Below, one piece after another: positions 49,995 to 56,500 of a stretch of 64,000 bases of DNA. This DNA is from Paralichthys olivaceus (Eukaryota; Chordata; Actinopteri; Pleuronectiformes; Paralichthyidae). The translations under genes and the position numbers were made by a program. The DNA is taken from positions 11,233,001 to 11,297,000 of the forward strand of contig NC_091111.1 in NCBI RefSeq assembly GCF_024713975.1, read 5' to 3'. The notes beneath the pieces were generated by a model. It saw nothing but the letters and a program-made list of their open reading frames with translations, was not told the origin of the DNA and searched no databases. Positions within the stretch are counted from its first letter, which is position 1. Each line of letters opens with the position of its first letter.

Positions 49995-50588
49995 ATGAGC
50001 GAGGAACCAGCGCTGGAAGATACTAAACTTAACCAGGGTCAGACCAAAGAGGACCATGCCCAGCAGCAGCAGCAGGAGGAGGAGGCGGGGGACCCGACGC
50101 GGTGCGCCGACGAAAACAAGCTGAAGGACGGTCATGAAGCGACGCCGACCACCCGCCTGTACCGCCGGCGCTGGATGATCGTGCTCCTCTTCAGCTGCTA
50201 CTCTCTGTCCAACTCCTTCCAGTGGATCCAGTACGGCATCATCAGCAACATTTTCATGAAGTTCTACAACGTGGACGCCTTCACCATAGACTGGATGTCC
50301 ATGATCTACATGCTGACGTATATTCCCTTCATTTTCCCGGTCACCTGGCTCCTGGACAAGCGGGGGCTGCGGGTCATCGCGCTGATGGCCACCACGCTCA
50401 ACTGCGTCGGGACGTGGATCAAGGTGGCCAGCGTCAAACCCAACCTGTTCGCCGTCACCTTCCTGGGCCAGTCCTGCTGCTCCCTGGCGCAGGTGTTCAT
50501 CCTCGGGATGCCGTCGAGGATCGCCTCGGTGTGGTTCGGCTCGGAAGAGGTGTCCACCGCCTGCTCCATCGGAGTCTTTGGGAATCAG
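49995..50588 (+). CDS. flvcr2: flvcr2 alternative first coding exon 1a (MFS transporter, helices 1-4 and half of 5)
   Basis: The exon encodes 198 residues of a FLVCR-family transporter. The N-terminus is cytoplasmic, with a QQQQQEEE stretch near residue 25, and is followed by helix 1 (with NSFQWIQYG, Trp77), helices 2-4, and CSLAQVFILG then MPSRIASVWFG. It ends after GVFGNQ with a consensus donor (CAG|GTAAGT, phase 0). About 93 of 144 aligned residues match exon 1b without gaps. Trp77 and Gln166 fall where mammalian FLVCR2 has its choline-pocket Trp102 and Gln191. No exon 2-like sequence was found between here and exon 1b, so it probably splices 4.3 kb to the shared exon 2 at 54,894. Alternatively it is the remnant of a tandem paralogue that lost its other exons. 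The intact frame argues against long decay. Confidence 0.85.
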
Positions 50589-50594
50589 GTAAGT

Positions 50595-51625
50595 GAGCTG
50601 GGAGGCCAACGCTGTCTTCTCGTCTGTGAATTCAGGTCAAGTTTGGTCTTCACCTACTTGATTACTCATTTAATCCGTAGGCCTGTGTACGAGCTACACT
50701 CACCACCAGTGATTTGGGCAATCCCACATCTATTTGGCACGTCTGCGTAATTACGCACGTCCAGGCGACCACAGTGCTTCTCTTGTGCGTCCAGGGCTTA
50801 ACGCTGTTTACTAAGGTCGTGAGAGAATGAATGGGAGCAACACACAGTGACGCATGCAGGGAGAGACATGGATTTATACTGAAATCACATGACCCTCCAA
50901 ACAGACAAAATAAATCAATAAGAGGAAGACTAAACATGATCTCTTATCATGTTATATGTGCTAAACTCAATGGAGAAACATATCTCTACACACATAGTTT
51001 AGACACGTGTGATCACATTATCAGCATGAAACATATGGATGTGTGTTTTTCTAAAAGGCTCATTTTGAAACAATTTGCCTATTGTGACACTTTTCGAAAG
51101 AAAACTAAAGACAGTTCCACATTCGCGTGAATCAATTACAATAGTTAAAAAACTGAAAATCAAATACTTTTGAAAACATCAAAGTTGGGGAAAATCAACA
51201 GGCAATTTTCGCAGTTGATTTCCAGTGCACTTGGTCTCACTGAACGTTTTTCAAAATCTTAGTGGGAGTCTAAAAGTTTGAAGGCAGCCATATTTTTTTG
51301 TTTCGACACATCAATGATGAAAACACTTTTTGTGGTATTGTGAAACAACCATACACACAATCCTGTACACTCTTAAATGTATCCACACACAAAAACATGA
51401 ACATGAAGAGAGCAACTATTGATACCATTTTAAAAGAAAAACTAATGAATCAATCAGTTGAAATCAATTGAAAGTGTGTAAACGGAAATCAGTTGGAAAT
51501 CATGAAAGTGTGGCAAAGTTTGCTCAAGTTTATATATTTGATTTATGGGACAAATTACATAATATACAATTATTATTGGCTTTTCTGGTGTTGATGACCA
51601 CTCTAAGTTCTTGACTTGTACAGTT
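50595..51625. other. Intron DNA after flvcr2 exon 1a, no exon seen
   Basis: I looked for a second exon with the LGIAIGFLVPP-type start expected after the GNQ end and found none, either here or in the rest of the interval up to 53,506. Confidence 0.6.
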
Positions 51626-51630
51626 TTTTC

Positions 51631-52790: not shown

Positions 52791-52799
52791 ACATAATAC

Positions 52800-53500
52800 A
52801 AACATTCCTTTAACACTACCACCGACCTACAGAGAGATTAGGTCTCAGTTTGACACAACTCCTTCAGACATATAGACAGATTAGGTCTCAGTTCGGCTTG
52901 TGACACAGGTTATCTTGCAGTGGCCAGACAGCCTTTATATCAGTACGTGTTATCACACCCCACTCCTCTGCAGGAGGGAACGTACGTCTGAGCATTGTCT
53001 CTAAGACAAAAGAAGGCTTCACTGTACATTTACAAAAGTCTGTGGTAGGATGCACATTTTAAACAGCAGCCGATACAAAGGGCTGGAAGCAAATGAATCT
53101 TCTGTATAATGCTTCCTGTAGTTAAATAATAACACAGACATGGAATCATTAAGCTTTTGCAGCAAATCCAAATCTTCCTTACATTCAAATGAGTTAACTT
53201 AATCAACACAAAGAAATGTGTGTTACAGTTTTCAGGGGTCACTGGACAGTTAACTAAAGATAATCCAGGGTCCGAGTAGGTGGGAGTGGTTTGAGTGTAA
53301 TTGGCCGAACTCCTCTGTTAACATCACATGACAGGACTGAAGGTAACAAATATGTGGACGTGTGGTATAGATGCTCACATTCACTTAGCTGTGAATGGAC
53401 AGGGAGCAGTTTGCGTTCAGGACAGCGAGCCGTTAGGGACACAAGCTCCGGCATCTCTCACTTCTCACGTTCCAGGAGGCCCCCCCCCCACTCTGGGACA
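52800..53500 (+). promoter_or_regulatory. Probable promoter region of flvcr2 exon 1b
   Basis: Non-repetitive sequence between the MITE-like element and exon 1b. A GAGAGATTAGGTCTCAGTT-like segment occurs twice (about 52,832 and 52,868). An upstream ATG frame (53,328-53,528) would overlap the exon 1b start codon in another frame if it is in the leader. A 10-base C run lies at 53,480-53,489. No TATA box is clear. Confidence 0.3.
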
Positions 53501-53506
53501 GTCACA

Positions 53507-56500
53507 ATGCCACGAAACAATACTTTGAAAGGCAACCATGCAAATTCTGAACTCGGTGGTGACGAGTGGCTGCGGTCCAAGGCTGCAAACAAGCTCGCTC
53601 CAGGCCTCTCTTCGCTGCAGTGGAGCCCGGGACCTCTGGGTAGAGCAATCTCCGTGGGTTCCCAGCTGGACGACATGGTGGGCTTACGAGGTGACCACGT
53701 GCAGCTGGTCCGGAAGCCAGAGACCAAACTGTACCACCGCCGCTGGTTCATGCTGTTTCTCTTCAGCGCCGTCTCGGCCAGCAACGCCTTCATGTGGCTC
53801 CAGTACGGCATCATCAGCAACATTTTCATGCGCTTTTACAACATAGACTCTCTGGCCATCGACTGGCTGTCTATGATATATCTACTCACATATATCCCTC
53901 TCATTCTGCCCGTCCTGTGGCTTCTGGAACACAGGGGCATCCGGGATGTCGTCCTCGTTGGTTCAGCCTTCAATTGCATTGGCGCATGGATAAAAATTGG
54001 TAGTGCAAGTCCTAATCTGTTCCCAGTCACCTTCTTTGGCCAGTTTGTGTGCTCAGTAGCCACTGTGTTTGTGCTTGGTATTCCCTCTTACCTTGCCTCA
54101 GTGTGGTTTGGAGAGAAAGAGGTCTCCACTGCCTGTTCCATAGGAGTTCTGGGAAACCAGGTTTGTCTGAATATCAAATTAATCATTTAATTTGTTCTCC
54201 TGCAGCAGGAGACTCATAGAGTTGTATGAACTGTCTGATAGCTGCATGTAGATTATGCAGCGCAGCACGAGATGCCAGAGTCACATAGGACTTCTAGTGT
54301 CTCAGTGTGAGAGGCCTGAGAATTAAGTTAACCGTTTCCTGAAACCTTCTCGTCCCACTAGGTCTGTTTAGAGGTTTGAATGTGAAAATATTGAGTCCCA
54401 GTATCTAAATTCTGTGTTGAATTAGTCATATGACAATGATGCCTTTAAAATATGTTATAGAGCAACCTTAATTTGTAGAAATATGATAATGTGGTTATCT
54501 AAGTCGATTTTACTCTTAGGCAAAAATGTTTAACCTCAGGAATGTTAAGTTAAATAAGTTACAGATAAGAGATGGAGAATTTTCTGAAATAAATGTATTT
54601 ATCAATTATTTATATCAGGGTCTTAAAAATGTACATTTAAACCAGTCGCAAAGCAACAGTTTTGAATAATAAGTATTGAATCACTGTAATATGCACTTAG
54701 AACATGGCAACACAAGCAAAAATGGCTTCTACATCTACATGGTGTGGTTACACACGATCAGAATATATGAGCAGTGAGGTTTAAGCACCATTTTTTCTAA
54801 TCCACTGTGATTTCATGTTACCTCAAAAACAACCATTTAGCTCTGTGTCCTCTCTTTCTGTAATTTGCGTTGTATGTGTTCCTCGTCACACAGCTGGGCA
54901 TCGCCATCGGGTTCCTTGTGCCTCCCATGCTGGTGCCTAATGTGGACGACATGGACAAACTGGCTCACCACATCAGCATTATGTTCTACATCACAGCAGG
55001 GGTGGCGACCTTACTCTTCATCCTTGTTGTCTTCGGTAAGATAATATATTTTCTGCATGATTGTATTGATAGCACATTTGTCCGAGGTTTGCACCACTGA
55101 AATACCTTGGGTCCTCCATTCTCTGTCTCGTGGCTCTTGTCTTGTGAAGGTTCATTTAGATTTAAGAACTTAGTTTGACTCCACATTGTGTTTGTTAGTT
55201 GTAATCTTGTTTGTCAATGAACACACAGAAAACTTAGCTCGAGGTAGCCTTCATTGAGGTACTCTGTGGCTGCAGCCAGCAATTGTTTTCATTGTCAATA
55301 TTTCAGACAGTTTTGTCAAAAAATACCTCCTATTATTATTTGTCATATTTATTGTAAATCTTGGTAGTTTGGTTTGACCACCAGTCAAAAATGGAAGTTT
55401 GATGCTGAGTTTACTATCATAGAAAACTGAATTCAATCAAAAACATCATCACCTCACTAAGCTTTCCCTCGTTACACTCAGACTTCTTGATGCCTTTATT
55501 TTTCTACTTCTCCATCTGAAACCAACATCTAAACATTATCTACCCAATGATGTTAAATGATTTTACAGCAGACCTAAACTCTGACAAGAAGCACGAGAGA
55601 AAACTGCTTAGCAGTGGATAAGAAAAGTGCTGACCATGCTGGCACCAACACAGAACCCCTCCTGAGGGGGAGGCAGAAAAGAAACTATTGTCGTAGATGT
55701 GAGGTCAGGAGAAGTGTCAATGGAAATGGGAACAAATGCACACAAGTGCTCTGGCACACTAAAATCTGTTTGTAAAATTTGTAAATTAAATGCTGCTTAT
55801 AGATATATTTATTAAAATAGAGAAACTATAGTAAGAGAAGGACTCAAAGGAAGTGGTTTACATGGCATGACAAATGAGTGATGAGCTGTCAAAAAAAAAT
55901 GCTGAGTTGCCTTGTATCTGCTACTTCTGCAATTCGACCACTATAGTCTTAATCCTACAATTCTACAATATAATCTTTTAGAATTTATGCTTTTAATTGC
56001 AAGTAATAGCTCACATGTTCAATTAAATCAGTTTCTGTACATTTGTATCACTCAAAAACAAGATTCGTGTGTTGTGTTATTTGGTGACGAGTCAGATGAA
56101 TAATAAATGACAGCAGTAGATAGAGAACTGTGTGTTAACGACAGAGAACACTGGACAGAGCAGTTGTCAGACAGCAACGACGCGTATGAAAAAGCTGTTG
56201 TCCTGTAATGTCGGGGGGGAGGATGGAGGATGGCGGGTCGAGGCGCTCGTCGGCGTCCAGAAACACAAAAGCATGCTTGTGAGGGCATTCCATAGTAGGA
56301 CCATGCACAACATTTAGACTGCATGAACTGTCGCTGTTGAATTTTGACTACAGTCCCCTCCTGTTGTTTAAAGTGCACCTTGATACGCAGACTGCAGCTC
56401 TGTCCATGTGACCATCGGAAAGTTGTTCAATGTGCATTTTTGAATCAGACACTTTTATGAGCCTGGTTCATGATTTATGAACCAGGAACCCCCGGTTACA

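Follow-up and report, generated by a model that had tools for sequence, protein, structure and literature searches.

Alternative first exons often serve a regulatory purpose, and mammalian FLVCR2 has a single first exon. In UGT1A the variable exon encodes the substrate-binding half of the protein, while SLC39A14, SLC12A1 and SLC25A3 possess mutually exclusive, duplicated internal exons that are chosen singly and tune transport. In the UGT1 (UGT1A) cluster, the first exons are described as variable, each being driven by a separate promoter and joined to common downstream exons (PMC3325998), FLVCR1b is described as a shorter isoform of FLVCR1 (PMC10998817), and the Q191A exchange in human FLVCR2 is reported to abolish the transport of choline and ethanolamine (PMC11168923).

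The flvcr2 gene of ray-finned fishes resembles each of these in part. As in UGT1, homologous N-terminal exons of the same phase precede one downstream set, but UGT1 encodes an enzyme and has many first exons, whereas flvcr2 encodes a carrier and has two, one of them (1b) seemingly with its own upstream acceptor. As with FLVCR1a and FLVCR1b, which belong to the same family, one gene has two isoforms differing at the N-terminus; FLVCR1b, however, is shortened, while the flvcr2 isoforms both have full length and their N-halves are homologous duplicates. In contrast to the internal exons of SLC39A14, SLC12A1 and SLC25A3, flvcr2 swaps about 200 codons that include the start codon. It further recalls frame-enforced mutually exclusive exons, in that double inclusion via the best 1b acceptor would be non-productive in both flounder ohnologs. 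Compared to human FLVCR2, the 1a isoform has the same pocket residues (human and mouse FLVCR2 cores are Gln101/Gln191) and shares 101 of 147 residues of the exon-1 core, while the 1b isoform differs from it in carrying Met101/Thr191.

The locus in the window, i.e., the whole 64 kb stretch of DNA analysed here, is Paralichthys olivaceus flvcr2b, with all exons on the + strand. Exon 1a (49,995-50,588; 594 nt, 198 codons) is of the Gln101/Gln191 type, covers the N-terminus to mid-TM5 and is followed by the donor GTAAGT, and exon 1b (53,507-54,160; 654 nt, 218 codons from its ATG) is of the Met101/Thr191 type and is followed by GTTTGT. The two cover the same portion of the transporter and terminate with GNQ in phase 0, and a single exon 2 follows (54,894-55,035), starting with LGIAIG, all of which agrees with an earlier note on this DNA. 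The other shared exons in the window are exon 3 (58,935-59,075), exon 4 (60,502-60,569), with the Phe-Tyr pocket pair, exon 5 (61,232-61,335) and exon 6 (62,447-62,557), whose exact 3' end was placed by eye between GG and GTATTC; the gene extends past the window, its next matches lying at 64,239-69,321 when counted in window coordinates. Between exons 1a and 1b, blastp (E 7e-78) aligns 148 residues, of which 95 (64%) are identical, close to the roughly 93 of 144 noted earlier; the codons differ at 44, 21 and 79 of 148 first, second and third positions, respectively. The earlier note had also considered a hidden exon set for 1a at 50.6-53.5 kb, but the printed sequence has no run of N there and tblastn across the 64 kb found no exon-1 copy besides these two and no duplicate of exon 2 or exon 3; the later exons have one match each within the window and the next 10 kb. 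Rfam gave no matches over 48,500-64,000, and Tandem Repeats Finder returned no rows for 49-55 kb. By sequence, both exons are closer to FLVCR2 (SLC49A2) than to FLVCR1, 1b only narrowly: the core of 1a has 94 residues in common with FLVCR1, and that of 1b 90 with human FLVCR2 and 87 with FLVCR1. The best PDB matches of both are FLVCR2.

The flounder 1b isoform is already known as a database record, flvcr2b isoform X1 (P0002), to which the spliced window exons with 1b are identical over 407 aa; its MFS domain (PF07690) is matched with an E-value of 9e-31, and that of exon 1a alone with 3.7e-10. No separate 1a protein of flounder was listed in the database clustered at 90%, and our literature search found no published report of the exon pair. 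Among 24 annotated isoform pairs, 20 combine the two exon-1 types with identical downstream sequence, each consisting of proteins of one species (one pair confirmed to genus only) whose isoform names are annotation. In the flounder ohnolog flvcr2a (C12), 1a, 1b and single shared exons follow in the same order, and both exons are intact at both loci. The record, the pairs and this layout bear out the proposal that a single locus joins either of two N-terminal coding exons to common downstream exons. Short transcript-like contigs were of the 1b type only, three for flvcr2a and none for flvcr2b. An AlphaFold model of P0002 built with 40 sequences (mean pLDDT 44) was too poor for a fold search and was discarded.

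Upstream of 1b, a 3' splice site (AG at 53,474-53,475) with a 31-nt untranslated leader is predicted (53,456-53,506, + strand), starting the exon at 53,476, 31 nt before the ATG, with a score of 7.1, in the 99.4th percentile of AGs in the window. Splicing 1a to it would shift the reading frame and lead to a stop after 24 codons; in flvcr2a, the corresponding acceptor lies 44 nt before the ATG and the stop comes after 7 codons. Therefore, an untranslated exon further upstream is probably spliced to 1b, which would then not literally be a first exon, and a transcript including both 1a and 1b would be truncated. The earlier view of 1b as an alternative first exon without a frame-compatible acceptor at its start holds as regards the alternative coding exon and the frame of the strong acceptor, but probably not as regards its being first; it needs correcting in that a strong acceptor does lie just ahead of 1b, and the idea that 1a would naturally skip 1b is too simple given that strong out-of-frame acceptor. 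Weaker in-frame AGs occur inside 1b of flvcr2b, the best at 53,621 (score 2.0), and the flvcr2b donor scores are 1.7 for 1b versus 8.7 for 1a. As these scores use approximate matrices and the genuine acceptor of exon 2 reaches only 1.8, 1a may have an acceptor upstream as well. A CpG-rich stretch across 1a (49,400-50,750, unstranded) is likely its promoter region, with an observed/expected CpG ratio of about 0.8-0.9, against 0.47 for the whole window (0.87 at 1a versus 0.53 at 1b); on the 1b side there is the predicted acceptor in place of a located promoter. Both ohnologs have a similar block ahead of 1b (52,450-52,803 of the window; 73% over 397 nt), which was considered as a shared 1b promoter but rejected as a dispersed repeat, as it recurs at 48,488-48,826 of the window and, on the opposite strand, in L017.

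The duplication is old, as had been proposed, and on sequence evidence predates the teleost genome duplication, because the two exon types are each represented in both teleost ohnolog clades, and also in one alligator-gar model (P0014, on which the gar 1b type rests). Two Lepisosteus proteins and one Amia protein are all 1a-type, and for flvcr1 one exon-1 match was found. All 122 of 122 non-Gln191 cores fall into one clade of the tree with a support of 1.0. A search with the gar 1b-type region returned, among the best 120 of 368 matches, only ray-finned fish where the organism was named, some rows being nameless. Between the flounder ohnologs, dN and dS are 0.133 and 0.55 for exon 1a and 0.126 and 1.8 for exon 1b, indicating purifying selection on both. 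In flvcr2b, 1a is more alike than 1b in 103 of 105 comparisons (24 pairs), 1b evolving faster, whereas flvcr2a shows no such difference (19 of 36 comparisons). A reciprocal pattern seen with 19 pairs (1a slower in flvcr2b, 1b slower in flvcr2a) was dropped when its flvcr2a half failed with 24.

Across 258 exon-1 cores from 250 proteins, 133 have Gln191, 125 lack it and none is mixed. The exon types were sorted by position 191, so that the split in Gln191 (131/131 1a-types, 0/124 1b-types) follows from the sorting rule; position 101, however, splits likewise independently of it, 1a-types being Gln101/Gln191 and 1b-types mostly Met101/Thr191. In flounder, both 1a and 1b have Trp102 of the choline/ethanolamine pocket, with Gln at 191 in 1a and Thr in 1b. 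Because 1b-types lack the Gln191 that choline transport is reported to need in human FLVCR2, the gene probably gives rise to two transporters whose binding pockets differ, and sequence by itself does not justify calling the 1b isoform a choline transporter. This split at 191 and 101 also speaks against both isoforms doing the same job, their exons differing mainly in N-terminal tail and promoter for tissue-specific expression of one choline carrier; the regulatory role frequent among alternative first exons and the retention in 1b-types of Trp102, Ser203, Asn222 and most gate residues would fit such an arrangement, which we nonetheless regard as unlikely. Also rather unlikely is that 1b yields a non-transporting protein, perhaps regulatory or acting as a decoy, whose choline transport disappeared together with Gln191. 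Its faster evolution in flvcr2b, the loss of Arg200 in 31 of 38 flvcr2b 1b-types (69 of 96 flvcr2b 1a-types have Arg) and that of Trp102 in 5 of 124 point this way, but Trp102 (119/124), Ser203 (123), Asp124 (110) and Asn110 (107) are retained, 1b is as conserved as 1a in flvcr2a, and the same Thr191 in 109 of 124 1b-types, across most lineages sampled, is unlike random loss.

That one exon is a relic in decay, or that the two together reflect an assembly artefact, was the alternative raised by the earlier note itself, and the finding of 1a-types only in the named otophysans (except characins and Chanos), salmonids and bony-tongues would be in keeping with it; as both exons are open and constrained at two flounder loci and occur in proteins from many fish assemblies, it is in the main refuted and scarcely credible. 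Hardly more probable is a longer protein with two N-halves, from 1a and 1b in frame in one transcript: the scoring assigned one exon-1 copy to 242 of 250 protein models and two to the other 8, 7 of which carry a 1a-type followed by a 1b-type, but the linking stretches vary from model to model and the strong flounder acceptor is out of frame in both ohnologs.

We consider it quite probable that the N-terminal coding exons of ray-finned fish flvcr2 form a mutually exclusive pair ahead of shared downstream exons, with isoforms differing in substrate or rate. Each transcript would take 1a or 1b, joined at phase 0 to the single shared set, and each isoform would be a whole FLVCR carrier, with TM1 to mid-TM5, along with the greater part of what the N-domain contributes to the substrate pocket, from the chosen exon and late TM5 to TM12 from the shared ones. 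Transcription of 1a would start at its own CpG-rich promoter, an untranslated upstream exon would be spliced into the 1b acceptor, and double inclusion would be lost through the frame shift; the 1a isoform would be the ordinary choline/ethanolamine carrier. More tentatively, and with slightly more doubt than confidence, the swap may have switched the substrate of the carrier since before the gar-teleost split, Gln191/Gln101 serving choline and ethanolamine and Thr191/Met101, joined to the same C-terminal half, making a working carrier for another solute; both teleost copies would have retained it in parallel. If true, half of an MFS carrier would have been exchanged naturally, and the exchange long retained, at a residue that published mutagenesis has identified as necessary for choline; this would offer a ready experiment on substrate choice by FLVCR pockets that touches the dispute over FLVCR cargo. 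Fish flvcr2 knockouts or expression studies that target one exon 1 overlook the other isoform, and species showing only the 1a type here may not represent other fishes.

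The flounder flvcr2b locus carries two intact, open versions of the first coding exon, exon 1a (49,995-50,588, 198 codons) and exon 1b (53,507-54,160, 218 codons). Each closes on GNQ at phase 0, with a GT donor behind it, and the two lie ahead of a single shared exon 2 that starts at 54,894, which bears out the earlier note's reading of one gene with two first coding exons. The two are identical at 95 of 148 aligned residues (64%). Shared exons 3-6 lie within the window and later exons in the next 10 kb, and exons 2 and 3 have no second copy within the 64 kb. In a protein search, the spliced 1b isoform matched the database protein P0002 ('choline/ethanolamine transporter flvcr2b isoform X1 [Paralichthys olivaceus]') with 100% identity over 407 aa, so that sequence databases already contain an annotation of flounder 1b; P0048, from the same species, is named 'flvcr2a isoform X2'. 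No separate flounder 1a protein was among the matches listed from this database, which is clustered at 90%.

Upstream of flvcr2, an exon at 46,802-47,203 (+) reads by eye like a BATF basic zipper, in the same order as in mammals; this open frame has no match in the Pfam scan. Further upstream, a 0.4-0.6 kb sequence occurs as two direct copies on each of two sides (29,334-31,500 and 37,937-39,753) that are oppositely oriented, with inverted arms of 423-559 nt that are 98-99% complementary. The copies flank a region holding a Nab2-type zinc-finger gene (PF14608, 36,209-36,622), ZC3H14-like by eye, and each contains an open frame of 105 aa to which Pfam gave no match.

The ohnologs flvcr2a and flvcr2b are built on the same plan. 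On C12 of the flounder genome, flvcr2a exon 1a (15,793,629-15,794,288, 220 codons) is followed by exon 1b (15,801,504-15,802,124, 207 codons) and then by one match per shared exon, starting at 15,805,335. Genome-wide, the exon-1 core, an aligned region of 148 residues, gave 5 matches with the 1b query and 6 with the 1a query, namely the two window exons, the two on C12, one at 19.18 Mb on C19 (which also carries the window), and one that is weak and contains a stop. Judged by its sequence, the 19.18-Mb match is flvcr1: it is identical to human FLVCR1 at 112 of 147 residues and to FLVCR2 at 91, and has downstream exons adjoining.

Three protein searches yielded 250 distinct proteins (the best 120 of 1761, 2201 and 368 matches, a sample therefore biased towards the queries). 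Among these listed matches we found 258 exon-1 cores: 132 with Gln101/Gln191 (1a-type; numbering by alignment to human FLVCR2, 8qcx), one with Gln191 and position 101 missing, 108 with Met101/Thr191, and 17 others without Gln191; mixed cores (Gln101 without Gln191, or Met101 with Gln191) were absent among the 258. In an exon-1 tree rooted on human FLVCR1 (249 rows, three mammalian references and both window exons among them, with identical and gappy cores removed), all 122 rows without Gln191 group in a single clade (support 1.0), within which the alligator-gar copy branches first, and the 246 fish rows form a clade without human and mouse FLVCR2 (0.956); support is weak at several nodes within the 1a-types (0.094 to 0.553). 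A second tree, built from the shared part of 247 of the 250 proteins (the three in which this part is short were omitted), puts the 38 labelled flvcr2a and the 36 labelled flvcr2b, both by their listings, in clades of their own, supported at 0.85 and 0.92. The flvcr2a clade has 84 non-Gln and 29 Gln exon-1 types, the flvcr2b clade 39 and 96. Because both ohnolog clades contain both types, the exon duplication came before the teleost genome duplication, and the one gar model with a 1b-type places it ahead of the gar-teleost split, in keeping with the old age proposed before. Characiform 1b-types (P0226, P0229, P0080, P0107, P0111) have Met or Ser at 191, not Thr. The cyprinid, catfish, electric-eel, salmonid and bony-tongue proteins checked by name among the matches listed are 1a-type only, a hint that 1b may have been lost in these lineages.

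Pairing 1a-type and 1b-type proteins through their shared part gave 24 pairs (9 flvcr2a and 15 flvcr2b), 20 of which are 100% identical in this part over up to 250 aa and carry one species name, among them Oryzias latipes, Gadus morhua, Echeneis naucrates and, matched to genus only, Nothobranchius; the other four are near-identical and come from related species. The same-species pairs are annotated isoforms. Twelve proteins, nine 1a-type flvcr2b and three 1b-type flvcr2a but no 1b-type flvcr2b, sit on contigs of 1.7-4.3 kb with open frames of 1.4-1.6 kb. Retrocopies might account for such contigs, but at both flounder loci the gene extends over more than 12 kb, so the contigs look like spliced transcripts, and we read them as such. 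Eight of the 250 models scored with two exon-1 copies, seven as a 1a-type followed by a 1b-type; the stretches linking the copies vary, and we take these models as annotation joins. The odd one, P0211, a Merluccius polli FLVCR2 model, is probably a join too; it is listed with a transposase-like domain (PF13359).

As for the choice between the exons, 1a lies within a CpG-rich stretch in both ohnologs (o/e 0.87 in flvcr2b, 0.78 in flvcr2a), and 1b is lower in CpG (0.53 and 0.38). The earlier note held that 1b has no frame-compatible acceptor at its start. A strong 3' splice site is, however, predicted 31 nt before the flvcr2b 1b ATG (score 7.1, 99.4th percentile of window AGs), and another 44 nt before that of flvcr2a (6.5, 99.2th percentile), scores that random 60-nt stretches attain at frequencies of 0.020 and 0.026; what holds is that the best site is out of frame with 1a. 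Joining 1a to it puts translation out of frame, and a stop follows after 24 codons in flvcr2b and 7 in flvcr2a, so that double inclusion would be non-productive. Exon 1b would be the second exon of transcripts beginning in a putative untranslated upstream exon. Within 400 nt upstream of 1a, the best acceptors score 2.8 (flvcr2b) and 2.4 (flvcr2a), which is compatible with an acceptor there, as the real exon 2 acceptor scores just 1.8 and 3.7. A dispersed repeat of ~350 nt (66-75% identity; window 52,450-52,803 and 48,488-48,826, and 4,842-5,195 and 980-1,372 of two other compared stretches, L017 and L015) lies upstream of 1b at both ohnologs and could pass for a conserved promoter.

Purifying selection acts on both exons. 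Between flounder flvcr2a and flvcr2b (Nei-Gojobori), 1b has a dS of 1.8 and a dN of 0.126, and 1a a dN of 0.133 and a dS of 0.55, the latter unreliable because of high GC3 (0.87 vs 0.63). Mean identities for 1a, 1b and the shared part are 0.888, 0.768 and 0.878 over the 15 flvcr2b pairs, and 0.849, 0.851 and 0.887 over the nine flvcr2a pairs.

The human FLVCR2 pocket includes Ser99, Trp102, Gln191, Asn222, Ile226, Phe324, Tyr325 and Gln447 (PMC13160678). A second study describes the pocket residues as fully conserved in mammalian FLVCRs and Asn110, Asp124 and Ser203 as gate residues, and reports that Q191A in FLVCR2 abolishes choline and ethanolamine transport, while Q214A in FLVCR1 abolishes that of ethanolamine and affects choline only partly (PMC11168923). 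Comparing 131 1a-type with 124 1b-type cores among the matches listed (3 gappy cores excluded), 9 of 148 positions discriminate the classes at 85% or more in each, and at positions 101, 191 and 220 the other class's main residue is absent from each. The 124 1b-types retain Trp102 in 119, Asn110 in 107, Asp124 in 110, Ser203 in 123 and Asn222 in 117 cases, and the shared half of P0002, read by eye, keeps the Phe-Tyr pair and the equivalents of Glu435 and Gln447. Arg200, which forms a salt bridge with Glu435, is retained in 71 of 84 flvcr2a 1b-types; in flvcr2b, 31 of 38 1b-types have Tyr or His at this position, the window's included by its sequence, and of the 96 1a-types 69 have Arg and 21 Lys. 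Gates kept together with a changed pocket residue suggest that the 1b isoform may be a working carrier with altered selectivity.

Exons 1a and 1b are thus a real, ancient and conserved pair of alternative N-terminal exons, already annotated, but piecemeal; no report of the pair was found in titles and abstract openings of the papers listed, with subscription papers mostly outside this search. UGT1 has alternative first exons too, and the pair is thus ordinary in kind. What is unusual in flvcr2 is that the N-terminal half of the carrier's pocket is swapped at a residue essential in human FLVCR2.
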